Shown piece by piece: positions 3,310-21,249 of a stretch of 64,000 nt of DNA; the stretch's first letter is position 1, and every line of letters starts with the position of its first letter. The notes beneath the pieces are model-generated. The model saw only the letters and a list, made by a program, of their open reading frames with translations. It had not been told where the DNA came from and ran no database searches. Made by a program: the position numbers and the translations under genes. Source of the DNA: Oscillospiraceae bacterium (GTDB lineage: Bacteria; Bacillota; Clostridia; Oscillospirales; Oscillospiraceae); assembly GCA_017434755.1 (NCBI GenBank), contig JAFRER010000016.1:1-64000 (forward strand), in the 5' to 3' direction.

Positions 3310-4704
3310 TCATAGGGTTAGGCTGTTCATCAACGGCTCCAGAGAATCATATTCCTCTAGGTGCTTTATGATCTCCAGTGCCTCCCTGATTTTGTGGTTG
3401 GGCAGTATGACAGCTGCACAATTGCAGAATCTGGTCTCAAGTTCTTCATCGGTCAGGCGGGATTCGCCCTGAGCGGTACCTCTGGGACTGATAGTCATAT
3501 CCGAAACCGTCCGACCGTCCTTAAGATCGATCTCCACCCTTGCATAGAAGGACCAGGGATGGGTCTTTTTATATTCGGCATATTCAGGAGCCACGATCAT
3601 TTTTACCTTTTTGGCCAGCGCCAGGATCTTGGGGTCAGTCAAACGCAGATTATCCTGCCACTGCGGACCCGGAGTATAGTCAAAAGCAGCCAGTGCAATG
3701 TTATAGGGACCGGAGAACTGAGCGTCTACCTGGTTGTTGATGGCATACTGATCCGGATGGGCGGTGAAGGGACCTGTATTGCAGCGAACCTCCAGAATGT
3801 CGTTGGCAGAAAAGCCGTACTTTGCTTTCAACCGGTAAAAAACGTCCAGACTGGCATGCAGGAAACGGCAGCAGGGATAAGGCTTATACATGGTGTTGAG
3901 CACACCCCAGTCCTTCCCTAGATTCCTGGTCACCGTTTCCGGATCCCATTCCACATCTCTGGCATAAATGGCAGGGAAGCCGAATTTAGAATCCAGTGTA
4001 TAAGCATTGCCTGTATAGCCTTCAGCCGCCATCATTGCAGCCTGAACCGCACCCTGGGCACACCATGAAACCGGCACATACTTGATCATGCTCTTCGGGA
4101 TCGTAGACTCCCAGTCGCTGCAGGTGGGAAGCGGGCAGAGATATGCAGAAATGCCTAATGCGTGAGCAGTCTGCTCGCGGTCCAGATTCATCAGAAGTGC
4201 ATTGGCCACGGCTGCACCAAGCATGTGTTCATTGCTGTTGCCGTTGATATCCGGGGTTTTATTGTACTTGGTCAGAGAGATCATCATGGCCATTCCGAAC
4301 ACACGGTTCAAACGTAGTGCGATATCATGTCCGATAGTCAAAGCACGCAGAAATTCACGGCCGCTTGCTTTCTGCATCTCTGCTACGGCCAGCACTGCCG
4401 GCACCACAATGGGCGGGATATGCGGTATAGGGTCCATATCAAGGCCGTTGAGCAGTTCCGCATTGGTAAATGCGGCGATTGGTGCAGCAACCTTACCGCC
4501 CATACCCAGCACTGTTGCTTCCGGTGTCCCGCCGACACGGCGTGCAAAGCCCAATCCGAACTTGCCTTTATCCGAAGTAAGGCCTCCCAGGGCATTTCCG
4601 AGACCATCTATCAGGATTCGCTTCATCTCATGAATTACATTATCGGGAATGTCATCAAATGATGTGTTGAAGGCGAAATCCAGTAGTGCATCCGTGACTT
4701 TCAT
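3310..4704 (-). CDS. MmgE/PrpD-family protein (stand-alone)
   Basis: A 464-residue cytosolic protein of the MmgE/PrpD superfamily, which holds 2-methylcitrate dehydratase, cis-aconitate decarboxylase and iminodisuccinate epimerase. The usual framework is present: N-terminal all-helical domain with LIDGLGNALGGLTSDKG, then ELLNGLDMDPIPHIPPIV in place of the family's HALDFDD...HPS segment, and a C-terminal lid with EVRCNTGPF and MTISPRGTAQGE. Length is normal (about 450-480). The ATG at 4704 has AGGAGG 12 bases upstream. It is transcribed away from the transporter operon, so the two share the 392-base intergenic region. The substrate is unknown. Confidence 0.85.
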   Translation of the reverse strand: MKVTDALLDFAFNTSFDDIPDNVIHEMKRILIDGLGNALGGLTSDKGKFGLGFARRVGGTPEATVLGMGGKVAAPIAAFTNAELLNGLDMDPIPHIPPIVVPAVLAVAEMQKASGREFLRALTIGHDIALRLNRVFGMAMMISLTKYNKTPDINGNSNEHMLGAAVANALLMNLDREQTAHALGISAYLCPLPTCSDWESTIPKSMIKYVPVSWCAQGAVQAAMMAAEGYTGNAYTLDSKFGFPAIYARDVEWDPETVTRNLGKDWGVLNTMYKPYPCCRFLHASLDVFYRLKAKYGFSANDILEVRCNTGPFTAHPDQYAINNQVDAQFSGPYNIALAAFDYTPGPQWQDNLRLTDPKILALAKKVKMIVAPEYAEYKKTHPWSFYARVEIDLKDGRTVSDMTISPRGTAQGESRLTDEELETRFCNCAAVILPNHKIREALEIIKHLEEYDSLEPLMNSLTL

Positions 4705-4760
4705 CGTTCTGAAATACCTCCTTTTCAAATAGGTAGTAATTGTTTCTACGCTGAATCAAA

Positions 4761-5096: not shown

Positions 5097-6725
5097 TTGA
5101 AAACGATGAAACGCATACTCCCCATCGTCCTTGTCCTGGTGCTGTGTCTCTCTATGGCAGCTTGTGGAGGAACAGCAGCAGCCCCCAGCGGCGGCGAGTC
5201 TCAGTCGAGCTCCGGGACTCAATCAACGACCGGTAATCAGCCAAGTGGTGCACCGCAGCCAAGCGTTGCCGGTGAAAAGTACGCCGATCATATCGAAGTC
5301 ATCATCGACAATACCCAGATCGCCGGTATTAACCCGATCGGGGCAGGCGGTCCCGGCAGTGCCACCGGATGGGTCTATCTGATGGTTTACAACAGCCTGG
5401 TCAGCTTTGATGATAACACGGGTGTATATTCCCCAAATCTGGCCACGTCTTGGGAAAGTGACGACTGGCAGACTGTCACATTCCATTTGAGAGACGACGT
5501 CGTGTTCTCCAACGGAGAAAAGTTTACGGCTGACGATGTGGTTTTCACCATTGAGCAGTCAATTGCCAATCCCGGCTCTGTTGCCGGCAGCACTTTCTCT
5601 TCCGTGGAATCTGCGGTGGCATTGGATCCCTATACTGTTGTGTTTACCTTGAAAGCTCCAAAGCCCCAGATTCTCTTTGACTGCTCTTCCGAGCTGGGAG
5701 GCATCATGTGCAAGAAGGCTGTGGAGGAGGATCCTGATAAGGGCGTCTGGATCGGGACCGGTCCGTTTATAATCACGGATTTCGGAACCAACGATTTCGT
5801 CAAACTAGAACGCAATGATCTCTATTGGGGTGACCCGGTCCCCACTAAGAGCATGACTCTTCGTTACATCCCAGAGATGAGCACCCGTCTTATGATGCTT
5901 CAGAACGGTGAAGCGGATATTTGCTTCAACCTGAGCGAGCAGGATATGGATCTGGTAGCAGCGGATCCGGAGCATTACGATGTATATGCCTACCTTGCAA
6001 ACAACTGCTCTGATATCGGATTCAACCTGAACGATCCCATATGCGGCGACATTAATTTCCGTATGGCGGTTGCCTGCGCTCTGAACAGGACGGATATCGC
6101 GCTCGGTGCTGCAGGAACCTACGCTGCCCCCGAAACCACAGGTACTTTCTGGGGCTCCGGTACTCCGTTCCGCAATAATGATATCCCCATAATTCCTTAT
6201 GATTTGCAGAAGGCAAAGGATTATCTGGCTGCATCACCCTATAAAGGTGAAGAAATCGAGCTTATCACAGCCATTCCTACCATGATCAATGCATCTACTG
6301 TAATTCAGAACCAACTGGCGGAGATCGGCATCAATATAAAGATCAAACAGACTGACCCAGGAAGTCTGATGTCCATATGCAGTTACGGTACAAGTGATTA
6401 TCAGATGTATGCCTTTGTTGGTGCCTTCGGCTATGAGCCATATTCCGCGATGAATGGTATCTACGGCCAGGCACACATGCAGAACAGGGCCACATATGAC
6501 GAGCCGCGGATCCTGGAGATCCTGGATATGGTGGCTACAGAGACTGACCCGGCCAAGTTGCAGGCATACTGCTATGAGGTTCAGGAGATAGAGGCTAAGG
6601 ATATCCCTTACATCAACCTTTTCTATGTAAAGCAGGCCATTGCCGCATCCAAGGCCATCGGAGGACTGGTTGTTGCCAATGACGGAGGCCACGACCTCAG
6701 ATATATGTACAAACTGGAAGGGTGA
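5097..6725 (+). CDS. Family 5 solute-binding lipoprotein
   Basis: A 542-residue extracytoplasmic binding protein (SBP_bac_5 family, DppA/OppA-like) that captures di/oligopeptides, opines or nickel complexes for import. The start is a TTG at 5097, 8 bases after AAAGGAGG; the ATG at 5092 is out of frame and stops at once. A signal peptide ends in the lipobox LSMAAC with Cys23 as the lipid anchor, followed by a Ser/Gly/Gln-rich linker. Family landmarks LATSWESDDWQTVTFHLRDD and VFSNGEKFTADDVVF follow. It opens an operon with two permeases and two ATPases. The ligand cannot be predicted, but the flanking MmgE/PrpD and flavoprotein genes suggest a carboxylated or amino-acid-like compound. Confidence 0.9.
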   Translation: MKTMKRILPIVLVLVLCLSMAACGGTAAAPSGGESQSSSGTQSTTGNQPSGAPQPSVAGEKYADHIEVIIDNTQIAGINPIGAGGPGSATGWVYLMVYNSLVSFDDNTGVYSPNLATSWESDDWQTVTFHLRDDVVFSNGEKFTADDVVFTIEQSIANPGSVAGSTFSSVESAVALDPYTVVFTLKAPKPQILFDCSSELGGIMCKKAVEEDPDKGVWIGTGPFIITDFGTNDFVKLERNDLYWGDPVPTKSMTLRYIPEMSTRLMMLQNGEADICFNLSEQDMDLVAADPEHYDVYAYLANNCSDIGFNLNDPICGDINFRMAVACALNRTDIALGAAGTYAAPETTGTFWGSGTPFRNNDIPIIPYDLQKAKDYLAASPYKGEEIELITAIPTMINASTVIQNQLAEIGINIKIKQTDPGSLMSICSYGTSDYQMYAFVGAFGYEPYSAMNGIYGQAHMQNRATYDEPRILEILDMVATETDPAKLQAYCYEVQEIEAKDIPYINLFYVKQAIAASKAIGGLVVANDGGHDLRYMYKLEG

Positions 6726-6866: not shown

Positions 6867-7826
6867 ATGATTCGATATATTATCAAAAGACTGCTCTATC
6901 TGATTCCGGTTATATTGTGCGTATCCTTTATAATCTTCGCTCTAATGGATCTTACTCCCGGTACCGTTGTAGACAGCATGATCCCAAGCGATGCCACCCC
7001 TGAGCTGATTGCTGCTATCCGGGCACAATACGACATGGACAAACCGATGATCTACCGCTATGGAAAGTATATGCTCAACTTCATTCAGGGGGATTTGGGC
7101 AGATCAGATCTCTCCGGAGAGAGCATCATGAAGATGTATTTGACACGTCTTCCGAACACGATCGTTCTGGCACTGACATCCATAGTGATAGCTGCTCTGA
7201 TGGCTATTCCCATGGGTATCCGTGCAGCACGGCATGCGGGGACTCTGACAGATACCATGACCACTGTGGTAACACTGATCGGCATGTCGATGCCGGCTTT
7301 CTGGCTTGGCCTGATGTTGCTTTTTGCTTTCTCATACAAGCTCGGCTGGTTCCCAGCAAGTGTAAACGGAGGTTTTAAGAGCCTTATTCTGCCGGCTTTT
7401 TGCAACGGTCTTTCCATGATGGCTGGAACGACCCGCCAAACCCGTTCAGCGATGCTGGAAGTGCTGAACTCCGATTATTTGCGCACCGCACGCGCAAAAG
7501 GTGTGCCTGAGCGCAGGGTCATATGGAAACATGCCCTGGGCAATGCGATGATTCCGATCCTGACTACTTTGGGAGGAAATCTGAGCCATGCCATGGCCGG
7601 TTCCGTGGTCATAGAGTCCGTGTTTGCCTGGCCGGGCGTCGGCAGACTCACTGCAGAGGCTATCATGTCCAGAGATACCAAGATGGCCTGCGGTTGTGTA
7701 ATTATGACCACAATCCTTTATGTCGTAATGATCCTGCTGGTGGATTTGGCTTATGCATTTGTGGACCCGCGTATCAAAGCACGGTACATACGATCCAAAA
7801 AACCAAGAAAGCAGGTGGAAGCATGA
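6867..7826 (+). CDS. ABC transporter permease, DppB-type
   Basis: A 319-residue integral membrane permease of the BPD_transp_1 family. It has the DppB/OppB hallmarks: an N-terminal membrane helix (LIPVILCVSFIIFALMDL), the DMDKPMIYRYGKYM segment and a large outer loop, then five further helices. The coupling EAA loop that docks on the ATPases is ARAKGVPERRVIWKHAL near residue 210. Its stop overlaps the next permease start (ATGA). Length is standard for the family. Confidence 0.92.
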   Translation: MIRYIIKRLLYLIPVILCVSFIIFALMDLTPGTVVDSMIPSDATPELIAAIRAQYDMDKPMIYRYGKYMLNFIQGDLGRSDLSGESIMKMYLTRLPNTIVLALTSIVIAALMAIPMGIRAARHAGTLTDTMTTVVTLIGMSMPAFWLGLMLLFAFSYKLGWFPASVNGGFKSLILPAFCNGLSMMAGTTRQTRSAMLEVLNSDYLRTARAKGVPERRVIWKHALGNAMIPILTTLGGNLSHAMAGSVVIESVFAWPGVGRLTAEAIMSRDTKMACGCVIMTTILYVVMILLVDLAYAFVDPRIKARYIRSKKPRKQVEA

Positions 7827-8701
7827 GCAGAAATACTTTGACCAGCCGTCGGTATAAACGCCGCAGTCCGGTACGGGATTTCTTTCATCGTCTGACCCGT
7901 AACAAAGGAGCCTGTGTGGGGCTGGTAATAATCGGTATCCTTATAGTTATTCTCATTTTCTCATTTTTTATAGATTATAAAGACGTAACGAAACAGGATC
8001 TGAGCAACCGCTTTCTCAAGCCATCCTGGGAGCATCCGTTCGGTACGGATGATACAGGCCGCGACCTGTTTCTGCGGACACTTTACGGTACACGCTACTC
8101 TCTCTCCATTGGCTTCGGTGCGACCTTCCTTGCAGCATTGCTCGGGGTCATTATTGGCTCATTCGCCGGTTATTACGGTGGCTGGGTAGATGATGTGATT
8201 ATGCGTCTTACGGACATTCTGGCATCTATCCCTGCCATGCTTTTGGGGATGGTCATAGTCTCAATACTGGGAGGAAGCGTGCGAAATCTGATCATTGCCG
8301 TAGGTATATGCTCCGTTCAGTATTATATACGGATCACCCGCGCCTCAATCATGGCTATACGCGGACAGGAGTATGTGGAGGCGGCCAAGGTCATCGGCAT
8401 GTCGGATACCAAAATAATCTTCACTCAAATCCTTCCTAATGCTTTTTCGCCGATCATCGTTACATTCTCAGCGACCATCGGTATCGCCATCCTCGTTTCT
8501 GCCAGCCTTTCCTTCATAGGATTGGGAGTGTCTGTTCCCATGCCCGAATGGGGTGCCTTGGTTTCTTCAGGACGTAATGTCCTGCGCACGGCGCCGTATC
8601 TGTCGGCTTTCCCGGGCTTGTTTATAATGATAACTGTGCTGGCGTTCAATATCATCGGTGACGGCCTGAGGGATGCGCTGGATCCCAAGATGAAACGATA
8701 G
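7823..8701 (+). CDS. ABC transporter permease, DppC-type
   Basis: A 292-residue second permease. Start 7823 overlaps the end of the first permease by four bases and is preceded by AGGTGG; a longer in-frame open stretch upstream lies inside the DppB-type gene. The N-terminal region SPVRDFFHRLTRNKGACVG is the OppC_N signature. HPFGTDDTGRDLFLRTLYG and the EAA loop VEAAKVIGMSDTKIIFTQIL mark it as the DppC partner, expected to heterodimerise with the upstream permease. Confidence 0.92.
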   Translation: MSRNTLTSRRYKRRSPVRDFFHRLTRNKGACVGLVIIGILIVILIFSFFIDYKDVTKQDLSNRFLKPSWEHPFGTDDTGRDLFLRTLYGTRYSLSIGFGATFLAALLGVIIGSFAGYYGGWVDDVIMRLTDILASIPAMLLGMVIVSILGGSVRNLIIAVGICSVQYYIRITRASIMAIRGQEYVEAAKVIGMSDTKIIFTQILPNAFSPIIVTFSATIGIAILVSASLSFIGLGVSVPMPEWGALVSSGRNVLRTAPYLSAFPGLFIMITVLAFNIIGDGLRDALDPKMKR

Positions 8702-8716
8702 GGGGCGAATTAGCAG

Positions 8717-9796
8717 ATGTTCAGGAAAAAAAGACAGGATACGGCTGAGCTGGCTAAGAGCACGGAAGAGTCAGTACAGAGCAGTGAATATGTTCTGGAG
8801 GTCAGTGATCTTGTTGTTCATTATGAGATGGAAAACGAGACTGTGGAGGCGGTCAACGGCATCAGCTTCAAGCTGAAAGAGGGCGAGACCATCGGTCTGG
8901 TGGGCGAGACCGGAGCCGGAAAGACCTCCACGGCATTGGCTATCCTGAATATGATACAGTCGCCTCCGGGGAAGATAAAGCAGGGGAATATTCTGGTCAA
9001 CGGCAAGGATATTCTCCAGATGAAGCCGTAGCAGCTGGAAAAGGTGCGCGGAAAAGATATTTCCATTATATTTCAGGACCCGATGACCTCCCTGAATCCG
9101 GTAATGACTGTGGGCGAGCAGATTGCTGAGAGCGTCATGCTCCACGAACATGTTTCTAAAGCGCAGGCGGAGGAGCGGGCGCGGGAAATGCTGGAAATGG
9201 TCGGTATACCTGGAGCAAGGGCGACAGAGTACCCGCACCAGTTTTCCGGCGGCATGAAGCAGCGTGTGGTGATCGCAATTGCGCTGTCCTGCAATCCGAA
9301 ATGCCTTTTAGCCGATGAACCCACCACCGCGCTTGATGTTACCATCCAGGCGCAGGTGCTGGAGATGATGAATGAACTTAAAACGAATCTGGGTACCTCC
9401 CTGGTTATGATTACCCATGATCTTGGCGTTGTGGCGGCGATCTGCGACACAGTTGCCGTGGTTTACGCGGGTAAGATCGTGGAATACGGCACGCTGGAGG
9501 AGGTATTCAACCAGACTATGCATCCTTATACGGAAGGCCTGTTTAACTCTCTTCCGAAGATAAACAGCAAGGGAGAAAAACTTCAGCCGATTCCCGGTCT
9601 TATGCCGGATCCGACAAAGCTTCCGCAGGGCTGCGCCTTTGAGCCGCGCTGCAAATATGCGACAGAGGCTTGCCGGACGAAACAGCAGGTCAGCCGTCAG
9701 GTCAGCCCTACGCATACTGTGCTTTGCTGTGCTTATGATGATCCGGAATTCATGCTGGATAAGCGGAAGGAGGTAAAGGATACCGATGCAAGATGA
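8717..9796 (+). pseudogene. ABC ATPase DppD-type, interrupted by in-frame TAG
   Basis: One continuous reading frame for a 359-codon ATPase is broken by a single TAG at 9029-9031 (codon 105). Before it lies the Walker A loop GETGAGKT; after it, in the same frame, the Q-loop [12 protein letters not shown], signature FSGGMKQR, Walker B CLLADEP and the C-terminal oligopeptide region with Cys-rich [14 protein letters not shown]. Nothing else is damaged and no frame shift exists. The stop falls in the variable MKP-x-QLEKVRG stretch where relatives have K, E or Q, each one base from TAG. Options are a fresh nonsense mutation, a sequence error, or suppression. Translation could restart at the GTG at 9044, but that product lacks Walker A. 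Confidence 0.8.
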
Positions 9797-10754
9797 TGTT
9801 ATCCTCGAGGTCCGGAACCTCAAAAAGTATTTTAAGACCAACAGCGGGATAGTCCATGCGGTTGATGACTGCAGCTTTACAATAAATAAAGGAAGGACCC
9901 TCGGCGTCGTCGGTGAGTCCGGCTGCGGCAAATCCACCACCGGGCGCTGCATCCTGCGCCTGATTGAACCCACTTCCGGCAGCATTCGCTTCAAGGGGCA
10001 GGAGATCACCACTATGAACCGCCGGCAGATGCTCAAGGTGCGCAAGAATATGCAGATCATCTTCCAGGACCCCTACTATTCTCTTAATCCGAGAAACACG
10101 GTGTATCAGAGCATTGTAGCACCGATCAAGCAGAATAACCTTATGCCCGGTGCCTCACGGGCCCAGATAGAGGAACGTGTGCTGGAACTGATGAGTACTG
10201 TCGGACTTGCGGAACGCATGATAAACAGCTATCCCCATGAACTTGATGGAGGCCGCCGGCAGCGCATAGGTATTGCCCGTGCACTGGCAATGGAACCGGA
10301 GTTCATCGTCTGTGATGAACCGGTGTCGGCTTTGGATGTCTCTATTCAGGCACAGATCCTCAATCTTCTTCAGGAACTCCAGGAAAAGCGCAATCTGACC
10401 TATATGTTTATCACACACGACCTTTCTGTTGTTAATTATTTTTCCGACGACATTGTGGTCATGTATCTTGGTCAGATAGTTGAGAAGGCTCCTGCCAGAG
10501 AGTTGTTTGACAATCCGCTCCATCCTTATACCCGGGCTTTGCTTTCGGCGGCGCTGGAACCTGTGGCAGGTGCAAATAAAAAAAGGATCCAGTTGAAAGG
10601 AGAACTCTCCTCACCTCTGGATCCCGGCGATGAGTGCCGCTTTGCCAAGCGCTGTACGCATCACTGTCCCGAATGCAACTGTGGCACACCCAAACTGGTC
10701 GAAGTATCTCCGGACCACTTCGTGGCATGCCACCTTGTAAAGCAACTTACCTGA
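9786..10754 (+). CDS. ABC ATPase, DppF-type
   Basis: A 322-residue intact ATPase overlapping the DppD-type gene by 11 bases. Motifs in order: Walker [11 protein letters not shown]-loop [12 protein letters not shown], signature [15 protein letters not shown], Walker B FIVCDEP and the switch histidine in MFITHDLS. The signature is LDGGR instead of LSGGQ, a variant seen in a subset of clostridial Opp/Dpp ATPases. The oligo_HPY tail has [14 protein letters not shown], a Cys cluster often binding iron-sulfur or zinc in DppF proteins. With the partner ATPase interrupted, this subunit may have to act alone. Confidence 0.92.
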
Positions 10755-10818: not shown

Positions 10819-11727
10819 TCATCCCCGCATGAGCAGATGCAGGTTTTCCCGGGTATACTGCTGAAAGATACGTTGAGCCTCTGAGTAATCGTCACGCTTT
10901 TCCCAGATCATCTGGACATTGACCTTGATTGGAGGTGTGAAGGATGTCAAAGCAACATCCTTCCAATTCTCCGCGATCTCCCGGGAGATGACGATGTTGG
11001 CAAAGCCGCCGGTTATGGCTTTGTGAAGCAGATCCTGTTGACTGGTCTGAAGAATCATTTCTTTTTCTTCATTCCCGTTCGCTATAAGGTTGAACTGGTC
11101 ATCAGTCATACCGATAGACAGAGGAGTGAGCAAAGAAGCACGATCAGTTGTCTCAAGATCCGCCAGCGTAACATGATCCCGTTGCGTCAGGGGGTGCGAC
11201 AGTGAACTGCAGAGGACAAGTTCAGTTTCGTATAAAGGGAGCCGTTCCAGAATATCTTTGTAGATCTTTTCGTTAACGATATGCGGGGTTATAAAGAAAT
11301 CACTGTTTCTTTCCAGCACGGAGGAGACACTTTCTATAGCCGGACGTTCCGTGAGCAGCAGCCGGATCTCCGGATAACGCCGGCGGAATTCACAGAAAAA
11401 CTCCGGGAAGAAACGGGACCCGGTGGTAGTAGTGATGCCTATCCGCAATTCAGGGGCCTTCTGAGATCGCCTGCTGTCGTTAATGCTTTTCTTCAGCTCC
11501 ATATAAGCCTTGTTGAATTCAACGAACATTTTGCGTACTCTCTCACCGTCCTCGGTAAGCTTCACACCGGTCCGGGAACGTTTGAACAGGACCAGACCCC
11601 ATTCATTCTCCATATCCTTGAGAGCACGGGACACAGCGGTTCGGGAAACGTACAGCGCGCTTGCTGCCTTGGTCACATTTTTGTATTCGCATACAGCTTC
11701 AAAATATGTGATTTGGGTCAAAGTCAT
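10819..11727 (-). CDS. LysR-family transcriptional regulator
   Basis: A 302-residue LysR-type regulator. The N-terminal winged helix is plain (ITYFEAVCEYKNVTKAASAL, VSRTAVSRALKDME) and the rest is a two-lobed effector-binding domain. The ATG at 11727 follows GGAGGT at 7 bases; upstream in-frame ATGs have no ribosome site. It is encoded between, and opposite to, the transporter operon and the flavoprotein-fusion pair, so it is the obvious regulator of the locus. LysR proteins usually activate the divergent gene in response to a pathway compound. Confidence 0.9.
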   Translation of the reverse strand: MTLTQITYFEAVCEYKNVTKAASALYVSRTAVSRALKDMENEWGLVLFKRSRTGVKLTEDGERVRKMFVEFNKAYMELKKSINDSRRSQKAPELRIGITTTTGSRFFPEFFCEFRRRYPEIRLLLTERPAIESVSSVLERNSDFFITPHIVNEKIYKDILERLPLYETELVLCSSLSHPLTQRDHVTLADLETTDRASLLTPLSIGMTDDQFNLIANGNEEKEMILQTSQQDLLHKAITGGFANIVISREIAENWKDVALTSFTPPIKVNVQMIWEKRDDYSEAQRIFQQYTRENLHLLMRG

Positions 11728-11838
11728 AATCGCTACCTCCATGTGCGATTCCGCAGACACAACATATCCCGGTTGATTATCCTGACCGCAGTCCGTGATG
11801 CAAAGCGTCCGTTATCCAAGGTCCGGATACCGATCTTT

Positions 11839-11901: not shown

Positions 11902-13398
11902 ATGTATACGGTAATTGAAGCCCAAAGAGAAATACCTGTCTATGATTCGTGCGACATCCTTGTGGTAGGTGGAGGAGCTGCCGGTCACTCAGCTGCTATC
12001 GCAGCAGCCCGGGCCGGGGCAAAAAATGTCATTCTTATGGAACGATACGGTTACATGGGCGGTGACGCCACCGGCGGCTATGTCATCATGGTGCCTAAGC
12101 TCTCCTGGTATGACAAATCCTTTGTCCGTGGGATTCAGGAGGAATGGTTCACCCGCATGAAGGATATCCCCGGAGCGGTAATGGGACCGTCTCTGGATAA
12201 AATCGGCTGGACGGATCCGATTTATATCAACCAATGGAAGAGTATCCATGACTGCGTGAGCCGTCGGGATTTCGGCGGCACACAGGAGCCTTGCCTTGTG
12301 CGCTCTGTATATTTTGAACCTAACCAGCTGAAGATCGAAATGGACAATATGCTCCGCGAGCATGCGGACAGCATCAAGGTGATGTACCATACCTGGGGCG
12401 TACGTCCGATTATGGAGGGCAGCGAAGTCAAGGGAGTCTTTTTTGAGAGCAAGGAAGGGCGCAAAGCGATTCTTGCAAAAACCGTTATTGATGCTACAGG
12501 TGACGGCGACATATATTCCCAGGCTGGAGCACCGCATCACAATCTGACCGAAGCAGGACTTCGTTCCAGCGCCACGGCTCTGGTATGGCGTATCGGTGGG
12601 ATCAGTTGGGATGCTTATACCCACTGGATGAACTCTACGGAAGGAGCTTTCAAAATGGTCTTTGAAGGCTTGCAGAAGATTGCAGGGTACCGGACCATGC
12701 CGCTTCCTTCCAATCAGAATGACATCTGTTGGATGAACAACTGGCTCTACGAGATGAACAGCGCGAACGTCGCCGATCTGACCCAGACGGAGATGAAGGT
12801 GAGAGAATCTATACGCAGAGTATTGGATTTCCTTAAGGAAACTATTCCCTGTGCATTCAGAGATGCCTTCCTGTACGACATCGCACCGCAGCTCGGAGCC
12901 CGCTGCAGCCGCCGCCTGATCGGTGAATATGTGATGTCGGCCAATGACTTTGCCTTTGCAAATCAGTTTGAAGATGTTATTGCCTGGCATTCTACGATCT
13001 GTCAGATCAACGACTGCGGACCCGTAGAGATACCGTATCGTGCGATCTTGCCGCAGAAGATCGAGAACCTGCTGGCTCCCGGCAGACATTTGTCAGCTGA
13101 TAAGGCGTCGATCGACTGGTTGAATCTGATACCCCAGTGTGTCGGTACAGGACAGGCTGCCGGAGTGGCCGCCGCGGTCGCGGTTGAGGAAGGCACAACA
13201 GTGCGAAATGTAAACATTAAAAAGGTTCAGGACATTCTGGTGGAGCAGGATGTGCCGCTGCCCAGAAATGATAAGTTCCGTGCCAAAGATCCTACCTATG
13301 AAGAGATGGTGAAGGCGCACAATTACGGACTGGATACGGAAATGGCCAGAAAAGCGCGCGAAGGTGCCAAGGGTGTCCAGGGTTACCGCCAGTGGTAA
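11902..13398 (+). CDS. FAD-dependent oxidoreductase
   Basis: A 498-residue flavoprotein of the FAD_oxidored (PF12831) group. The dinucleotide-binding loop is VVGGGAAGHSAAIAAARAGA (about 19-38), followed by the acidic end of strand 2 in LMERYGYMGGDATGG, and the second FAD contact VIDATGDGDIYSQAGAP near residue 200. No Fe-S cysteine cluster or membrane segment is visible, so it is probably cytosolic. Members are mostly uncharacterised; some oxidise or reduce alpha/beta carbon bonds of carboxylates. It lies 19 bases before the fusion gene and is likely translated with it. Ribosome site AAAGGAACG precedes the ATG. Confidence 0.88.
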   Translation: MYTVIEAQREIPVYDSCDILVVGGGAAGHSAAIAAARAGAKNVILMERYGYMGGDATGGYVIMVPKLSWYDKSFVRGIQEEWFTRMKDIPGAVMGPSLDKIGWTDPIYINQWKSIHDCVSRRDFGGTQEPCLVRSVYFEPNQLKIEMDNMLREHADSIKVMYHTWGVRPIMEGSEVKGVFFESKEGRKAILAKTVIDATGDGDIYSQAGAPHHNLTEAGLRSSATALVWRIGGISWDAYTHWMNSTEGAFKMVFEGLQKIAGYRTMPLPSNQNDICWMNNWLYEMNSANVADLTQTEMKVRESIRRVLDFLKETIPCAFRDAFLYDIAPQLGARCSRRLIGEYVMSANDFAFANQFEDVIAWHSTICQINDCGPVEIPYRAILPQKIENLLAPGRHLSADKASIDWLNLIPQCVGTGQAAGVAAAVAVEEGTTVRNVNIKKVQDILVEQDVPLPRNDKFRAKDPTYEEMVKAHNYGLDTEMARKAREGAKGVQGYRQW

Positions 13399-13417
13399 TG
13401 ATCCGGAGGTACCGGCC

Positions 13418-15823
13418 ATGCTGACAAAAAGAGAAAACCTCACCGAAGTGATGAAACGTGGAAAACCCGACCGCTTTGTTAATCAGTACGAAGCCTTTGC
13501 TCTGCTGTTCGGGGCACCTGTCTCCCCATGGGTACAGACAGTTAAAGGCGGAGGCCCCTCAAAAGATGGCTGGGGTGTTACAAAAATATGGCCGGATAAT
13601 ACTCCCGGAGCGTTCCCGCTCCAGGATGAAGAACATCTGGTCTGTCCGGATATAACAGAGTGGCGCAAATATGTACATGCACCGGAAACCGCTTTCCCGG
13701 ATAAAGACTGGGCCATGATAAGGCAGATGGCCGCACGGGTCGATCGAAAGGAACAGTTCAGCCTTGTATTGATGACTTCGGGTCTGTTTGAGACCTGTCA
13801 TAACCTGCTGGGCATGGAGGAATGTCTGATTAGCTTCTATGAAGAGCCGGAAGCGATGCATGAACTGATCGACTATATCACTGAGTATCACCTTGCGGCC
13901 GCCGGAGAGATCTGCAATCATGTAGAAGCAGACGGGATATTCCTGCATGATGACTGGGGCCACCAGAATTCCACGTTCATTTCGCCGGAGATGTTCAAAG
14001 AATTCTTCGTTCCGGCATACAAACGTATTTACGCTTATTACAAATCCCGGGGATTTTCATTGGTGGTGCATCACAGCGACTCGTATGCAGCCACATTGGT
14101 CCCTTATATGATAGACATGGGAATTGATATATGGCAGGGCGTTCTCTCATGCAATAATATCCCGGAGCTGATCCGGCAGTATGGCGGACAGATGTCTTTC
14201 ATGGGCGGGATTGACGAAGGACGCATTGACGTTCCTGATTGGACCCCGGATATGATCAGGGAGGAAGTGGCACGCGCCTGTAACGAAAACGGATGTCTGT
14301 CCTATATACCTTCCATGTGCCAGGGCTTGCCGGGCAGCACTTTCCCAGGGGTGCACGAGGAGGTGACAAAGGCCATCTCCGAAATGAGCCGGATGGTCTT
14401 TCCCGATTCGGAGAAGAGCTTAAAGCCGCCTGCAGGAACGCTTCGGCTTTGTCGAAATCTTTTGGATACTCGTATCGAAGATCTGGAAGAGGAGCAGATA
14501 CACGTCTTTAAAGACCGACTGCTGGATATGACCGGATGTATTTTCGGCGGGGCTATCGTTACAGAGGACCGGTTTTTCTATGATATGCTGAAACAGCAGG
14601 GCGGTGCCCCGGAGGCTCCTGTTTTTGCTGATTCTGCGAATATCCGGCTGCCGGTGGTCAGTGCGGTCATGCATAATGCGCTGCACGCCCGAGCCAACGA
14701 CTTCGGCAATATGGCAATGGTGGTATTCGGAGATCCTATTGCCAGCCATTACGGCGAGACCATACTTCCCATGAACCTGACGTTGGCCGATGTTTATGGT
14801 GTCAGCGGACAGACTTTTATCGCTAACAATATTGCGGCGGAGGACACCGTCGGACGGCTCCTTTACACGCTACCGGTGCGCTTTCCGACAGATATGAAGC
14901 TGGGCTCAACAGCAGCAGCGGCTTTAGCCATCCGCTACGAGAGAGAAATGGATGCCGAAACAGCAATGGCTGCTCTGAGTTACGCTGCTGTGAATTCGAC
15001 GGATCCTGGAAACGCCTACTATGACTACAGCCAGGAGTTTAAATACCACAATGCCGAAAGTGCCAGGATGGGAATCATGGCGGTTGCCTTGGCTAAAGGC
15101 GGATGGCGGGGAATGGAAGACCCCTTTTTCGGTCAGGACGGTCTGATATCCCGGCAGGTTCCAGACGGCGGCCTTCCCGAAAGGTATGAGAAAGCTTTTG
15201 ATGATTTGGGGAAAACATACTTTACGGAAGTGCGCTTCAAACGAGGCCCCGGTGGAATGCCCACTATAGCTCCGGCTATGATGGGACTGAGACTTCGTGA
15301 GCAGATCGTCACTGACAGGGGTCGCTTTGATGCAAAGGAGATCAGGAAGGTAAGGATCTTCCAGCCGGAGGGCATGGGAATCAGTTACTATGCCAATCCA
15401 TTCCGCCTTCGGGATCACACCAACGCTCTTTTCTCCTATGCGTTCGCTTGCTGCTGCAGCCTGTACCACGGAGACCGCCGTGCGGATTTGGTACAGACAG
15501 CATCGATCCTGTCCAATCCGGAGCTAATCCGGCTTGCAGAAGAAACAGTCATCGATACATGGCGCTGTACGTCGAAGATGCCTGTTTTTAAAGCACAGGC
15601 TGAAATGACGGACGGGCATATCTATGAAGCTGAGGCAGATTTTGTAGCTGAGATGTTTGTCTATCCTGATCGTGAAATGCTGGAAAAGAAGTTCTGGGAT
15701 CAGTTTAATGCTTTTGGCAGGCTTCCAAGATCCACCGGAGAGAAAATAATCGAGCTGGCATACAGGATCGATACCCTTTCGGACATGCGAGAATACACAA
15801 GCCTTTTGTGTGTGCCGGGATAA
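13418..15823 (+). CDS. URO-D-like / MmgE-PrpD fusion protein
   Basis: An 801-residue two-domain protein. Residues 1 to about 335 follow the URO-D/MtaA barrel family (NLTEVMKRGKPDRFVNQYEA, DGIFLHDDWGHQNSTFISPE, VVHHSDSYAATLVPYMIDMG, SFMGGIDEGRID). The URO-D position that carries Zn-binding HxC in corrinoid methyltransferases reads HSD here, so zinc-thiol chemistry is doubtful. From about 345 to the end it is MmgE/PrpD-like: RLLDMTGCIFGGAIV, NALHARANDFGNM, ASHYGETILPMNLTLADVYG, VSGQTFIANNIAAEDTVGRL. Start 13418 has GGAGG eight bases upstream; an earlier in-frame ATG lies inside the previous gene. The frame is continuous, with no stop or shift at the joint. I know of no characterised enzyme with this architecture; the reaction is unknown. 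Confidence 0.85.
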   Translation: MLTKRENLTEVMKRGKPDRFVNQYEAFALLFGAPVSPWVQTVKGGGPSKDGWGVTKIWPDNTPGAFPLQDEEHLVCPDITEWRKYVHAPETAFPDKDWAMIRQMAARVDRKEQFSLVLMTSGLFETCHNLLGMEECLISFYEEPEAMHELIDYITEYHLAAAGEICNHVEADGIFLHDDWGHQNSTFISPEMFKEFFVPAYKRIYAYYKSRGFSLVVHHSDSYAATLVPYMIDMGIDIWQGVLSCNNIPELIRQYGGQMSFMGGIDEGRIDVPDWTPDMIREEVARACNENGCLSYIPSMCQGLPGSTFPGVHEEVTKAISEMSRMVFPDSEKSLKPPAGTLRLCRNLLDTRIEDLEEEQIHVFKDRLLDMTGCIFGGAIVTEDRFFYDMLKQQGGAPEAPVFADSANIRLPVVSAVMHNALHARANDFGNMAMVVFGDPIASHYGETILPMNLTLADVYGVSGQTFIANNIAAEDTVGRLLYTLPVRFPTDMKLGSTAAAALAIRYEREMDAETAMAALSYAAVNSTDPGNAYYDYSQEFKYHNAESARMGIMAVALAKGGWRGMEDPFFGQDGLISRQVPDGGLPERYEKAFDDLGKTYFTEVRFKRGPGGMPTIAPAMMGLRLREQIVTDRGRFDAKEIRKVRIFQPEGMGISYYANPFRLRDHTNALFSYAFACCCSLYHGDRRADLVQTASILSNPELIRLAEETVIDTWRCTSKMPVFKAQAEMTDGHIYEAEADFVAEMFVYPDREMLEKKFWDQFNAFGRLPRSTGEKIIELAYRIDTLSDMREYTSLLCVPG

Positions 15824-16193: not shown

Positions 16194-16880
16194 ATGACAT
16201 CCTTTTCGGAACTTCTCAAAACGAGAAAAAACTTCGTGTTCATCGGTGAAAGCGGAAGCGGGAAAAGCGAGATCGCGCTGAATACCGCCGTGCTCCTGCG
16301 GAAACACGGGAAAAACGTGCATGTTTTCGATCTGGATCAGACAAAAGCACTGTTTCGAGCCAGAGACGCGGAAGGAGACATGAAGGAGCTGGGGATAGAA
16401 CTGCACTATATGCCACAGCTGCTCGATACTCCGGTCCTTGTAAACGGGATCGTTCCGCATCTGAAATGTGAGGACAGCGTGAGTATTCTGGATGTCGGCG
16501 GAAATGATAATGCAGCCCGTATGATTGGGTGTTTATCCGAATACCTCAATGAGGAGAATACCGCCGCGATCTATGTCATCAACCCATACCGTCCGTGGTC
16601 CGGGAATGCCTGCGTGATACGTGCGACGATGGAAACAGTGCTCAATGCATGCCATATTGAGCGGGTCTTTTTCGTTGCGAATCCGACTCTGGGCTCAGAT
16701 ACGGAAGATAGTGACGTTTCCTCAGCTTTGCATCAACTGGATAATGATTTCCCGCTGGGAGAATTCTCAGGTGTCTTTATAAGGGAAGATCTGTTTCCTT
16801 ATTTTTGTGGAAAGAACGGCCCTGAATACATCCCCCTGCATCCCTATCTCAGATATCCCTGGATCAAATCCGGTAAATAA
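16194..16880 (+). CDS. P-loop NTPase linked to 2-oxoacid oxidoreductase
   Basis: A 228-residue cytosolic P-loop ATPase/GTPase of the ParA/MinD/CobQ-like (SIMIBI) type. The nucleotide loop is FIGESGSGKSEIAL (about 16-29); DLDQTKALFRARD gives the switch aspartates and SILDVGGNDNAARM resembles Walker B. There is no membrane segment or DNA-binding domain. It is the first gene of the operon encoding the ferredoxin-like subunit and three catalytic subunits of a 2-oxoacid oxidoreductase, 20 bases apart. A role in assembling or activating that enzyme is an inference from this context. Start chosen from GTTGGAGGGG seven bases upstream. Confidence 0.7.
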   Translation: MTSFSELLKTRKNFVFIGESGSGKSEIALNTAVLLRKHGKNVHVFDLDQTKALFRARDAEGDMKELGIELHYMPQLLDTPVLVNGIVPHLKCEDSVSILDVGGNDNAARMIGCLSEYLNEENTAAIYVINPYRPWSGNACVIRATMETVLNACHIERVFFVANPTLGSDTEDSDVSSALHQLDNDFPLGEFSGVFIREDLFPYFCGKNGPEYIPLHPYLRYPWIKSGK

Positions 16881-16900
16881 TCATACTGAAGGAGGACAAT

Positions 16901-17104
16901 ATGCCCGAACTTGCAATAAACACGGATTTCTGCAAATCCTGCGGTTACTGCGTGCTTTTCTGCCCGAAGAAGATTTTGAAAATCGGCGAGGTCGTAAATG
17001 CCAACGGATACCCCTTTGTTGTGCAGACCGAGCCGGAAAAATGTATAGGCTGCGCGATCTGCTGCTCCATGTGTCCCGAGGGGGCCATTGAACTCTATAA
17101 ATAG
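16901..17104 (+). CDS. 2-oxoacid:ferredoxin oxidoreductase, 2x4Fe-4S subunit
   Basis: A 67-residue ferredoxin-like delta subunit. Two complete CxxCxxCxxxC[P] clusters are visible: CKSCGYCVLFCPK near residues 9-19 and CIGCAICCSMCPEG near 48-60, enough for two 4Fe-4S centres. It carries electrons from the TPP-linked radical intermediate to external ferredoxin. AAGGAGG precedes the start; the alpha subunit begins 12 bases after its stop. Confidence 0.93.
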   Translation: MPELAINTDFCKSCGYCVLFCPKKILKIGEVVNANGYPFVVQTEPEKCIGCAICCSMCPEGAIELYK

Positions 17105-17116
17105 GGAGGACGGGAC

Positions 17117-18208
17117 ATGAGTAAGAAATTGTTTTTGAAGGGCGGCGAAGCCATTGCAGAAGCTGCCGTCCGTGCGGGCTGCAGGTTTTATGCCGGCTAT
17201 CCCATAACCCCCCAGAATGAGATCCCTGAGTATATGGCCCGCCGACAGCCTCAGGTGGGAGGAGTGTTCGTTCAGGGCGAGAGCGAGATCGCGTCCGTAA
17301 ACATGGTTTATGGCGCGGGAGCCAGCGGCACGCGGTCAATGACCTCCTCCTCAAGCGTCGGCATCAGTCTCAAAAGTGAGGGGATATCCTACTGCGCGAG
17401 TGCGCGCGTCCCTATGGTTTATGTCAATATGCAGCGCGGAGGTCCCGGCGTAGGTACTATCCAGGCTTCACAGCAGGACTATTTCCAGGCGACTAAAGCC
17501 AGCGGCAATGGCGGATTCAGGATGATCGTTCTGGCTCCCTCAACGGTGCAGGAAGCAGTGGATATGACCTATCAGGCCTTTGATCTGGCCGATCGTGACC
17601 GCAATCCCGTGCTCATTCTCGGAGACGGTGTCATCGGAACCATCATGGAGCCGGTGGTACTTCCTGAGATGAAGAGCGATGAAGAAGTTGCAGCTCTGAA
17701 GGCAAAGCACCACGGATGGGCGATCGTCGGCCACAGCCGTGAGGAGAAGCGGGGATTCCTCACTCCAGGCTTCTGGTCAACGGATTCGCTTGAAGCGCAC
17801 TGTCTGGAATTGGAGAAGCTTTACAGCAGCTGGGAAGAAAATGACGTGCAGGTCGAAGAACTGTATCTGGAGGATGCTGAAGTGGTCCTGGTCGCCTACG
17901 GCACTTCCGCCCGTATCGCTAAAAGCACCATGGAGATAATGCGCGACGAAGGCTGCAGGATCGGCATGATCCGTCCAAAAACAGTTTCCCCGTTCCCGGC
18001 AAGATCCTTTGATAGGATCAATTACGATACCTGTAGGTGTGTGCTCGATGTGGAGATGAGCATTCCCGCCCAGATGCTTTATGACGTCAGACTTGGCGTT
18101 AAAGATCGGGCCCCGGTGGAGTGCTGTCTACGCAGCGGAGGTAATCTTATTGAGCGCGAAGATGTCGTAAAGGAGATAAAGAAGATACTTGAAGGAGGCG
18201 GCAGATAA
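17117..18208 (+). CDS. 2-oxoacid:ferredoxin oxidoreductase alpha subunit
   Basis: A 363-residue alpha subunit of the Kor/Vor type (often annotated VorB). It opens with the expected LKGGEAIAEAAVRAGCRFYA and YPITPQNEIPEYMA, the pyrimidine-binding domain that completes the TPP site. GPGVGTIQASQQDYFQATKA is the domain linker that contacts the substrate. These enzymes oxidatively decarboxylate 2-oxoglutarate or branched-chain 2-oxoacids to the acyl-CoA, reducing ferredoxin, or run in reverse. Sequence alone does not separate the Kor and Vor specificities. Stop overlaps the beta start by one base. Confidence 0.92.
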   Translation: MSKKLFLKGGEAIAEAAVRAGCRFYAGYPITPQNEIPEYMARRQPQVGGVFVQGESEIASVNMVYGAGASGTRSMTSSSSVGISLKSEGISYCASARVPMVYVNMQRGGPGVGTIQASQQDYFQATKASGNGGFRMIVLAPSTVQEAVDMTYQAFDLADRDRNPVLILGDGVIGTIMEPVVLPEMKSDEEVAALKAKHHGWAIVGHSREEKRGFLTPGFWSTDSLEAHCLELEKLYSSWEENDVQVEELYLEDAEVVLVAYGTSARIAKSTMEIMRDEGCRIGMIRPKTVSPFPARSFDRINYDTCRCVLDVEMSIPAQMLYDVRLGVKDRAPVECCLRSGGNLIEREDVVKEIKKILEGGGR

Positions 18209-18954
18209 TGGAAGCGGTATATAGCAGAACAAAAACACTAAACGGAAATCTGCTGGGTTTCTGCCCCGGGTGCATGCACGGAACAGTCTTTAAGCTGATC
18301 GGTGAAGTGCTGGAAGAGATGAATATCGACAGCAGTACCACCGCCATACTCGGTATCGGCTGCTGCGGTCTTGCTCAGGAGGTTGTCAGCTACGATCTTG
18401 CCACGGCTCCCCACGGACGTGCCTGCGCAGTGGCGACCGGGCTCAAGCGTGCAAATCCTGACACTATCGTGTTTACCTATCAGGGCGACGGCGATCTGGC
18501 CTCCATAGGTCTTGCTGAGACGATCCATGCTGCCAACCGAGGTGAAAACATTACCACAATTTTCATCAACAACGGCATCTACGGAATGACCGGCGGCCAG
18601 ATGGCGCCTACCACACTTGTCGGTATGAAGGCCACTACCGCTCCGGGTGGACGCGATCCCGGGCAGCACGGGTATCCTCTTCATATGGCCGAGATCATCG
18701 ATCAGCTTATAGCTCCCGTATATATTGAACGTGTCAGCTGCAACAATCCCGCCAATGTCCGCAGGACGAAAAACGCTATACGCAAGGCCTTCCGGAATCA
18801 GATCGAGTGCAGGGGATATTCTCTGGTGGAGGTCGTTACCAGTTGCCCCACCAACTGGGGACTCAACCCGGGGAAGAGCCTCGGATTCCTTGAAGAGAAT
18901 ATGTTCAAAGAATTTCCGCTTGGCGTTCTGCGGGACAATACGGAGGTAAAGTAA
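18208..18954 (+). CDS. 2-oxoacid:ferredoxin oxidoreductase beta subunit (TPP-binding)
   Basis: A 248-residue catalytic subunit. The TPP pyrophosphate/Mg motif is YQGDGDLASIGLAETIHAAN near residues 92-111, closing with INNGIYGMTGGQMAPTT. CPGCMHG near residue 19 and GCCGLAQE near 51 supply conserved cysteines near the active site. It pairs with the alpha and gamma subunits encoded on either side, overlapping by one base each, so expression is translationally coupled. Confidence 0.93.
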   Translation: MEAVYSRTKTLNGNLLGFCPGCMHGTVFKLIGEVLEEMNIDSSTTAILGIGCCGLAQEVVSYDLATAPHGRACAVATGLKRANPDTIVFTYQGDGDLASIGLAETIHAANRGENITTIFINNGIYGMTGGQMAPTTLVGMKATTAPGGRDPGQHGYPLHMAEIIDQLIAPVYIERVSCNNPANVRRTKNAIRKAFRNQIECRGYSLVEVVTSCPTNWGLNPGKSLGFLEENMFKEFPLGVLRDNTEVK

Positions 18955-19508
18955 TGGAACTGAATCTTATGGTGGCAGGGTTCGGAGGACAGGGCGTCAT
19001 GATGATCGGAAAACTGCTCAGTCAGGCTGTATGCGATTCCACTGACTATAACGTGACCTTTTTTCCTTCTTATGGCGCACAGCAGCGCGGCGGCACGGCA
19101 AACTGCTATGTCGTGATCGCAGACGGTGATGTCGGATCGCCTAAACCTGCCCTTGTCGATCAGTTGATCGTGATGAATGATGTGTCCATGGTGAGGTACC
19201 GCAATAACGTCAGATCCAGCGGCATCATTTTTACCAACAGTTCCCTTGTCCAAAGCAGTGCGGAACGCGGCGATGTGACCGTGGTCCCGATACCTGTCAC
19301 CGAGATGGCGCTGGAACTCGGAAGCCTCAAAGTGCTGAATATCATCATGCTGGGCGTCTATATCGGTTTCAGCGGACTGATCGACGAGGATCTGGTGCTC
19401 GACTGCATCCTTCGTCTTCTAGGTAAAAAGCCGGAATTTATTGAACTCAACAGGAAGGCTTTTTCACTGGGACTCGAAGCGGGGAGGAAAGCAAAAGAAA
19501 AGGTATAG
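18954..19508 (+). CDS. 2-oxoacid:ferredoxin oxidoreductase gamma subunit
   Basis: A 184-residue gamma subunit (POR domain). The diagnostic start MVAGFGGQGVMMIGKLLSQA and the PSYGAQQRGGTANCYVVIAD segment, which binds CoA and closes the active site in related enzymes, are both present. It completes the four-subunit set in the order delta-alpha-beta-gamma usual for Kor/Vor operons. A double-hairpin terminator follows 70 bases later. Confidence 0.92.
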   Translation: MELNLMVAGFGGQGVMMIGKLLSQAVCDSTDYNVTFFPSYGAQQRGGTANCYVVIADGDVGSPKPALVDQLIVMNDVSMVRYRNNVRSSGIIFTNSSLVQSSAERGDVTVVPIPVTEMALELGSLKVLNIIMLGVYIGFSGLIDEDLVLDCILRLLGKKPEFIELNRKAFSLGLEAGRKAKEKV

Positions 19509-19577
19509 CTTGTCTAGCAACTTTGTGCCTGAGAAAATGTCAAAATTGGCACATCTGGAGGTGCACAGCAATAGTTT

Positions 19578-19627
19578 AACCCGCAGCGCCGACAGGCCGC
19601 CTCTGCGGCCAATCCCCGCTGCGGGTT
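19578..19627 (+). terminator. Nested double-hairpin terminator
   Basis: Outer arm AACCCGCAGCG / CGCTGCGGGTT encloses an inner GGCCGC-CTCT-GCGGCC, followed by TTGTATTTTG. It ends the 2-oxoacid oxidoreductase operon. The rest of the 19509-19902 gap is filled by the hairpin and repeat listed next. Confidence 0.75.
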
Positions 19628-19722
19628 GTATTTTGTGTCCAGTTGTCGGAAAAATTGTCGGAAAAAGATTTTTGCTATTTTTGTTAGAACTTATTCAGCA
19701 CAGAAATAGCCATATATAGCAA

Positions 19723-19756
19723 AAAAGCCTGGATTCTTTAACGAATCCAGGCTTTT
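19723..19756. terminator. Hairpin, second copy of the ATAGCAAAAAAGCC type
   Basis: AAAAGCCTGGATTC / GAATCCAGGCTTTT with loop TTTAAC. It shares the ATAGCAAAAAAGCC flank with the hairpin at 2871-2900. The two differ at two stem pairs (GG/CC here, TA/TA there) while base pairing is kept. Confidence 0.7.
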
Positions 19757-19777
19757 GCATTGCGTTAGGACACCAGT

Positions 19778-19860
19778 AATCATACAATTCGGCGTTTCTT
19801 ACCTCCAAGAGGGGGGTGGGTGCAAAGTGGGTGCAGATTATGTAAACCATATCTGCACCC
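19778..19860. repeat. Dispersed GTGGGTGCA repeat, copy A
   Basis: Starts with AATCATACAATTCGGCG and contains two direct GTGGGTGCA motifs (19816-19824, 19827-19835). The second one pairs with a downstream inverted copy to give a 10-bp hairpin (19829-19838 with 19851-19860) followed by CATCTTTTT. Copy B lies at 25895-25970 and a partial copy C at 30036. On the minus strand it sits just after the csaA stop. Confidence 0.65.
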
Positions 19861-19902
19861 ATCTTTTTCCCGAATACATCCAATTGGACGTTTCATGTTA
19901 TT

Positions 19903-20232
19903 TCAGAACACCTTGTCCCCGTTTCTTACCAGCTCGGTTGGCCTGAGCAGTACAACACCCTGCTCCGATTCTGTCCCGAGGATACGGACTTCACTTTTCA
20001 CAGAACCGATGTAGATCGGCGTCAGATTCACGCAGCAAATCACCTGTGTGCCGACCAAATCCTCCGGTTTGTAGAGCGTCGTGATCTGCGCGGAGGACTT
20101 TTTGACGCCAATCTTCTCGCCGAAGTCGATCGTCACTACATAGGCGGGATTGCGGGATTTCTTGTTATCCTTCACGTCGATCACGGTCCCGGCCCGCATT
20201 TCGACCTTGTCGAAATCTTCGATGCTGATCAT
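19903..20232 (-). CDS. csaA: CsaA-like tRNA-binding-domain protein
   Basis: A 109-residue OB-fold protein of the CsaA/tRNA-binding (EMAP-II) family, proposed as a chaperone or tRNA-binding factor in Bacillus. FDKVEMRAGTVIDVKDNKKS begins the OB fold, IDFGEKIGVKKSSAQIT forms its core and VICCVNLTP closes it. Start 20232 follows AAGGAGAG. Longer in-frame starts run into the HxlR gene upstream, whose stop is 17 bases away; the two are probably one transcript. Confidence 0.88.
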   Translation of the reverse strand: MISIEDFDKVEMRAGTVIDVKDNKKSRNPAYVVTIDFGEKIGVKKSSAQITTLYKPEDLVGTQVICCVNLTPIYIGSVKSEVRILGTESEQGVVLLRPTELVRNGDKVF

Positions 20233-20249
20233 ATCCGCTCTCCTTACCA

Positions 20250-20597
20250 TCAATCGCAGGGCACCGGTACGCCTGCCAGCTCGAAATAGTGCTCTCCCCA
20301 TTTGCAGAGGGCTTCCACGATCGGAACCAGCGTGCTTCCGAATTCCGTCAGCGAATACTCTGTCCGAGGAGGGACGACAGGATACAGCACCCGGTTAATC
20401 ACATCGTCCTCTTCCAGTTCCTTGAGCTGCTTCGACAGCATGCGCGGCGTCGCCTGCGGGATCGCCTTCTGGATCTCGTTGTAGCGCCGTGTGCCGCCGA
20501 TCAGTTCATAGATGATCTGCGCCTTGTATTTCCCGCCGACCACGTCCATGGCCGCTTCCACAGGACACTGATAGCTTTTGATCTTCTCCAGATTCAT
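20250..20597 (-). CDS. HxlR-family transcriptional regulator
   Basis: A 115-residue winged-helix regulator. It has the HxlR hallmarks: an N-terminal Cys in YQCPVEAAMDVVGGKYKAQI (Cys11), TRRYNEIQKAIPQATPRMLS as helix-turn-helix and RTEYSLTEFGSTLVPI as wing. HxlR proteins respond to electrophiles or redox stress through that cysteine. It is divergent from a nitroreductase/FMN-reductase operon, the classic target arrangement (compare YodB/CatR). The intergenic ATACT...AGTAT dyad just upstream is a likely operator. Confidence 0.9.
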   Translation of the reverse strand: MNLEKIKSYQCPVEAAMDVVGGKYKAQIIYELIGGTRRYNEIQKAIPQATPRMLSKQLKELEEDDVINRVLYPVVPPRTEYSLTEFGSTLVPIVEALCKWGEHYFELAGVPVPCD

Positions 20598-20649
20598 GCC
20601 TGCGCTCCTAACTATACTTTTTTATAGTATATCACAAAAAAGTGCGTTC

Positions 20650-20677
20650 TTGTGTTTTGGATAATTCCGGCTATAAT
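20650..20677 (+). promoter_or_regulatory. Promoter of the nitroreductase operon
   Basis: TTGTGT, a 16-base spacer and a perfect TATAAT lie 50 bases ahead of the nitroreductase start, facing away from hxlR. Confidence 0.55.
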
Positions 20678-21246: not shown

Positions 21247-21249
21247 AGC

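Follow-up and report, generated by a model that had tools for sequence, protein, structure and literature searches.

A URO-D-Type Domain Joined in One Frame to a Diverged MmgE/PrpD Domain in an Oscillospiraceae Bacterium

The 64,000-nucleotide (nt) stretch of DNA from an Oscillospiraceae bacterium analyzed here (contig JAFRER010000016.1; hereafter the window) carries a single 801-codon frame that encodes two enzyme-type domains in one chain (Table 1). The initial annotation, made from the sequence alone, had read this frame as a barrel of the uroporphyrinogen decarboxylase (URO-D) type followed by an MmgE/PrpD-type domain, and domain searches bear the reading out. Residues 1-328 match PF01208 (59.7 bits against a gathering score of 23.9), and their predicted fold agrees with the URO-D superfamily; residues 334-801, which we call PrpD1 to distinguish them from a canonical MmgE/PrpD protein (PrpD2) encoded nearby, match the N-terminal domain PF03972 above its gathering score and have a full-length predicted fold. 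The halves were folded separately, and a joint whole-chain alignment was discarded because it forced URO-D rows onto the PrpD half. Alignment with stand-alone relatives revealed that the URO-D part ends at its normal C-terminus (MSRMVF), followed by PDSEK, and that the PrpD1 part starts near residue 10 of the 475 or so that are usual.

In one relative, the two domains are encoded by a pair of separate genes. In a Eubacteriales metagenome-assembled genome (locus L023), a gene for a flavin adenine dinucleotide (FAD)-dependent oxidoreductase is followed, in the same order as in the window, by genes for a URO-D protein (339 residues) and PrpD1 (476 residues) that lie 3 nt apart; identities to the window are 76%, 67%, and 67%, respectively. 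The fusion itself was sought among 5.8 billion proteins. The search gave 140 hits, and among the 120 of these that were listed both domains occurred in one chain only in the window's own cluster of eight members, the remaining 119 having URO-D or PrpD alone. The sequence that represents this cluster comes from a contig of 11,106 nt; it departs from the window protein at three positions (M234L, N246H, and P569T) and has the same junction. That an assembly or sequencing artefact fused two genes is accordingly hardly credible, even though the fusion is confined to one protein cluster: the junction recurs unchanged in a non-identical sequence, is in frame, is 51 nt shorter than its L023 counterpart, and contains no stop. 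The frame error near position 14420 that the initial annotation had considered is likewise not borne out. On these sequences we take the fusion to be genuine but rare. A Shine-Dalgarno-like sequence (GGAGGTGA) lies upstream of an in-frame ATG at 14384, but at a distance of 17 nt, and a further in-frame ATG is found at 14393; separate translation of PrpD1 from either start seems unlikely. The initial annotation knew of no characterized enzyme with this pairing, and we found no paper in the open-licence literature that joins MmgE or PrpD with uroporphyrinogen decarboxylase, nor any there that combines MmgE, PrpD, and rumen. MmgE and corrinoid are both named in some open-licence papers.

PrpD1 was found at seven loci: the window, L023, L024, L025, L037, L135, and L137. 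Two of these (L135 and L137) were reached via PrpD2; in the genomes of L023-L025 the count of PrpD1 covers the loci named. PrpD2 shares a contig with PrpD1 at six of the seven; the L024 genome has it on a separate contig (L136), and the two contigs are likely parts of one cluster because both contig ends contain part of the FAD gene. A URO-D gene is present at four loci (fused in the window and separate in L023, L037, and L135) and was not seen in the stretches of L024, L025, and L137 examined. In genome G438 (L037) and in Parasporobacterium RGIG5915 (L135), PrpD2, PrpD1, and URO-D form a tandem together with TRAP genes. Because of the split neighbors in L023 and the tandems in L037 and L135, the pairing of URO-D with PrpD1 is, by gene order, a gene module of which the window carries the fused form. 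The FAD enzyme is present in the window, L023, L024/L136, and L135. An ABC transporter of family 5 is encoded in the window and in L136, and TRAP carriers in L037 and L135; L025 has a DASS-like symporter, a weak match (23.2 bits against a cut-off of 198.6), and L137 has ABC-like genes, judged from the frame list alone. TRAP and DASS carriers transport mostly organic acids. Their presence, together with that of two MmgE/PrpD proteins, suggests that the substrate of the module is a small carboxylic acid.

PrpD1 was otherwise scarce: one of 390 further genomes in the class sample and none of 393 further ones in the order sample had it, and the single hit among 188 genomes of the order of G438 was G438 itself. 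To judge from the match ranges, 59 more relatives, including 36 from the same genus, had no match to the PrpD1 half. Two candidates from the phylum sample (G1294 and G1227) gave profile matches of 1e-56 to 1e-66, yet were 23-27% identical and scored better with PrpD2; they were set aside as other MmgE/PrpD proteins. The L135 locus (956-9453) is a run of seven genes, for the FAD oxidoreductase, TRAP subunits DctQ, DctM, and DctP, PrpD2, PrpD1, and a URO-D protein of the HSCG type, and is an experimentally cleaner system than the window. L137 (510-9321) has a far-diverged PrpD1, identical to listed protein P0083, with PrpD2, the ABC-like genes, and an iron-containing alcohol dehydrogenase. By eye, and as a hint only, the protein lists place PrpD1 and URO-D on equal-sized contigs of shared source (17,642 and 14,446 nt) and PrpD1 and the FAD enzyme likewise (15,538, 14,475, 19,285, and 225,641 nt); for a 12,287-nt pair (P0171/P0290) the sources differ and the match may be chance.

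How intact are the two halves? Each sequence was left out of its alignment in turn and compared with the columns invariant among the remaining rows. In a 32-row URO-D alignment (30 of the 120 listed proteins plus the window and L023), 67 columns are invariant among the 31 sequences other than the window's, and the window URO-D keeps 65 of them, the changes being G14R and H69Q; the PrpD half keeps 84 of 85 columns invariant in 32 others. The end branch of the PrpD half measures 0.2, as compared with 0.11-0.14 in the three sisters that have separate end branches. That of the URO-D half measures 0.45 in a quick tree and exceeds the end branches of all 13 clade mates; the window's set has 15 rows with L037, an outlier on a very long branch that was set aside, and 14 without it. 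(In that tree 16 of 24 rows for proteins joining URO-D to a B12-binding domain were mis-cut and fill less than half of the columns, and their placement was disregarded.) Both halves, to judge from these comparisons, are under constraint, the URO-D half having evolved faster.

The initial annotation correctly read HSD in the URO-D half, in place of the HxC zinc motif of corrinoid methyltransferases. The absence of HxC is not peculiar to this protein; HxD is the rule in its subfamily: the motif is H-H-S-D, with H218, H219, and D221 invariant in all 32 aligned sequences. The URO-D proteins of L037 and L135, 21-22% identical to the window half, have H-S-C at the aligned position, and thus two different URO-D types adjoin PrpD1. 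According to PMC10418091, S-methyltransferases of the superfamily bind zinc via His-Cys-Cys, whereas in O-methyltransferases one or both Cys residues are replaced by carboxylates or non-ligands, a rule that the HxD of the URO-D half fits. PMC13222342 describes CdmB as a methyltransferase I (MTI) protein without zinc, so the H-S-D motif cannot settle membership among the MTIs. The URO-D half resembles the UroD-superfamily MTIs (MtvB, OdmB, VdmB, MtoB, and CdmB), MtaA/MtbA, and the Mlps in its barrel and its conserved His. Its best NCBIfam matches are methyltransferases of the MtaA/CmuA type, though far under the cut-off (40.5 bits for TIGR01463 against a curated 235.4), which places it outside that family. 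The URO-D profile found no sequence match in the PDB at 0.001, CdmB, MtvB, and similar MTIs are absent from the fold-match lists, which excludes nothing, and no relative was found in viral contigs. Two listed relatives have other architectures: P0098 (704 residues) is a tandem of two URO-D units with HSD at the metal site of the first and HSCG at that of the second, and P0105 (506 residues, 91 member sequences) has a partial LysR-type substrate-binding domain ahead of URO-D (27.4 bits against a Pfam cut-off of 28) and is either a real fusion or a mis-joined frame.

Relatives of the URO-D half are linked to corrinoid proteins. The phylum sample (396 genomes, no more than five candidates from each being scored) yielded 28 related URO-D matches from genomes other than the window's, and all 28 loci were fetched. 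A corrinoid-protein gene directly adjoins 11 of them, and one more is itself a fusion of URO-D to a B12 domain; at 50 bits, none has PrpD1, PrpD2, or the FAD enzyme. The window's genome, which is 97.9% complete, has one match to the B12-binding domain PF02310 and two URO-D matches, in searches that were positive in 12 and 8, respectively, of 14 control genomes. The two URO-D proteins are the fusion and a URO-D-B12 protein encoded on contig C3, whose B12 domain is the sole PF02310 match. The C3 gene (L038, 4455-9553) is divergent from genes for a RACo-type activase and a homocysteine S-methyltransferase, and several further genomes from this genus (L009-L012 and L014) also have the URO-D-B12 protein, with the activase or the methyltransferase next to it. 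The genomes of L023, L037, and L135 do carry corrinoid proteins at other sites. No cognate corrinoid gene, the neighbor expected of an MTI, lies beside the fusion in the window, and hence a corrinoid-dependent fusion would require a corrinoid protein in trans. The fusion thus differs from the MTIs, to which its relatives' corrinoid neighbors liken it, in having no corrinoid gene in its cluster and a PrpD partner instead. In CmuA and the URO-D-B12 fusions, as in the window, URO-D is joined to a partner in one chain, but there the partner is a corrinoid domain (for CmuA, see PMC13222342) rather than an MmgE/PrpD domain.

The PrpD1 half shares its fold with iminodisuccinate epimerase and 2-methylcitrate dehydratase but, unlike these enzymes, is without the C-terminal Cys/His stretch: the sequence K-x-x-P-x-C-x-x-x-H of PrpD2, whose closest solved structure is iminodisuccinate epimerase (E 1.1e-19), is K-x-x-P-G-G without His in PrpD1. 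It is 20% identical to cis-aconitate decarboxylase (IRG1/CAD), in which the His of FKRFPAH corresponds to Gly, PAH having become PGG throughout the PrpD1 alignment. PrpD1 retains an N-terminal His (H118 of alignment A2) and a Tyr near NYYSNPF. The C-terminal domain PF19305 gave no match in the window's PrpD1 half at E 0.01 and scored 25.7 and 20.9 bits in PrpD1 of L037 and L135 (cut-off 32.1), while many PrpD1 relatives among the matches listed are labelled PF19305 by precomputed domains. PrpD1 is thus a diverged but strongly conserved paralogue that accompanies the canonical one, which suggests a new specificity or a role as partner subunit; without the usual catalytic residues, PrpD1 may work with PrpD2 rather than as an independent enzyme.

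Table 1. Features at the fusion locus (positions in the window)
Feature	Position	Strand	Remark
Fused URO-D::PrpD1 gene	13418..15823	+	801 codons and stop; open frame, domain matches
URO-D half, residues 1-328	13418..14401	+	Complete relative to stand-alone relatives
Junction, residues 329-333 (PDSEK)	14402..14416	+	Between URO-D C-terminus and PrpD1 N-terminal region
PrpD1 half, residues 334-801	14417..15820	+	Diverged MmgE/PrpD
Codons of H219-S220-D221	14072..14080	+	H-S-C in URO-Ds of L037 and L135
Ribosome-binding site GGAGG ahead of fusion	13405..13409	+	Directly past FAD oxidoreductase stop
FAD-dependent oxidoreductase (PF12831)	11902..13398	+	19 nt upstream of fusion; linked in L023, L024, L135
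PrpD2, canonical MmgE/PrpD, N and C domains	3310..4728	-	Linked to PrpD1 at related loci
Family 5 ABC solute-binding protein	5097..6725	+	Domain match
Two ABC permeases	6867..8701	+	6867-7826 and open reading frame 7523-8701, N-terminal extension of the latter probably non-coding
ABC ATPase gene with in-frame TAG at 9029-9031	8717..9796	+	Domain match, alignment
Second ABC ATPase	9786..10754	+	Domain match
LysR-type regulator	10819..11760	-	Divergent from FAD oxidoreductase gene

Both flanks of the single TAG in the first ABC ATPase gene align continuously with an intact gene (L136:6828-7895; 80% identity overall). Downstream of the fusion (16194-22634) are genes for a ParA/CbiA-like ATPase, a 2-oxoacid:ferredoxin oxidoreductase set (17117-19508), and two flavin mononucleotide reductases. 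A promoter and terminator scan gave counts close to those of shuffled sequence and was not used.

Our preferred explanation, held tentatively and somewhat short of probable, is that a genuine fusion in a conserved catabolic module brings a methyltransferase-type domain and a diverged lyase/isomerase subunit to bear on one small carboxylic acid, possibly an O-methylated one. The importer would take up the acid, and the URO-D half would hold it via a metal in the His-x-Asp site, which would suit an oxygen ligand, and move its methyl group to a corrinoid protein (the C3 B12 domain). PrpD1, paired with PrpD2, would then dehydrate, isomerize, or epimerize the resulting hydroxy acid, and the FAD enzyme would carry out a redox step, the fusion keeping O-demethylation and lyase/isomerase chemistry on one acid together. 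We infer what class of substrate is involved, that this copy transfers methyl groups, that the C3 domain serves it, that PrpD1 and PrpD2 form a complex, and in which order the steps run. What the sequences show is the linkage; the two consecutive steps on one substrate, or the channeling, suggested in the initial annotation may or may not accompany it. Rather unlikely is the bolder version, in which an anaerobic pathway as yet undescribed would have a bifunctional enzyme that unites a corrinoid-type O-demethylase with a new class of MmgE/PrpD subunit, demethylates a small methoxylated carboxylic acid, and passes the hydroxy acid straight to PrpD1/PrpD2 (as a lyase or isomerase) and the methyl group to homocysteine via the single corrinoid protein.

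Several findings weigh against our preferred explanation. The corrinoid link is to relatives of the URO-D half, and even among these, 16 of the 28 loci had no corrinoid gene in the fetched stretch (some contigs being short, and the threshold 50 bits); the C3 corrinoid domain, the activase, and the homocysteine methyltransferase had no match in the window, L023, L037, or L135 (tblastn, E 0.001). PrpD1 lacks the PAH and C-terminal His residues of cis-aconitate decarboxylase, which we take to be catalytic, and in this respect does not qualify as that enzyme. In L024, whose PrpD1 is 78% identical to the window's PrpD half and belongs to the same six-row clade, the FAD gene and PrpD1 have no URO-D gene between them, which makes URO-D look dispensable. 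The longer branch noted above is that of the URO-D half, in which H69Q changes an otherwise invariant His; N246H, in the second fusion sequence, hits a column invariant in the alignment. Finally, the interrupted ABC ATPase gene may point either to decay of the cluster in the strain sequenced or to a sequence error.

The same observations on L024, the TAG, the long branch, and N246H, together with the restriction of the fusion to one cluster among the 120 hits listed, would be expected if it were an accidental, near-neutral product of a deletion between two adjacent genes in a cluster losing parts, with URO-D a passenger and PrpD1 working as before. We consider this unlikely: both halves are full length and keep nearly all invariant columns, and URO-D is a neighbor of PrpD1 at distant loci as well. 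Somewhat less improbable, and overlapping with our preferred explanation, is that PrpD1 is a catalytically silent partner of PrpD2 and that the docked or fused URO-D hands its product to the PrpD2 active site. The two PrpD proteins occur together at all seven loci (six times on the same contig, once in the same genome), and the loss of the PrpD2 Cys/His stretch from PrpD1 is what a silent subunit would show; however, PrpD1 has a large set of invariant residues of its own, unlike a decayed subunit, and the two PrpD genes are on opposite strands in the window and L023.

Improbable to a further degree is that the URO-D half is a decarboxylase or another enzyme of the same fold, sharing a polycarboxylate with both PrpD proteins. 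Three observations speak for a methyltransferase instead: the best NCBIfam matches, though far under the cut-off, are of the MtaA/CmuA type, related URO-D proteins have corrinoid neighbors and corrinoid fusions, and the URO-D proteins of L037 and L135 have an H-S-C site.

The fusion and its split neighbors connect two families for which the literature searched held no link, and the module offers a testable way into an organic-acid pathway in anaerobes. Should the URO-D half prove to be a demethylase, corrinoid methyl chemistry would reach small acids in addition to aromatic ethers and halomethanes.
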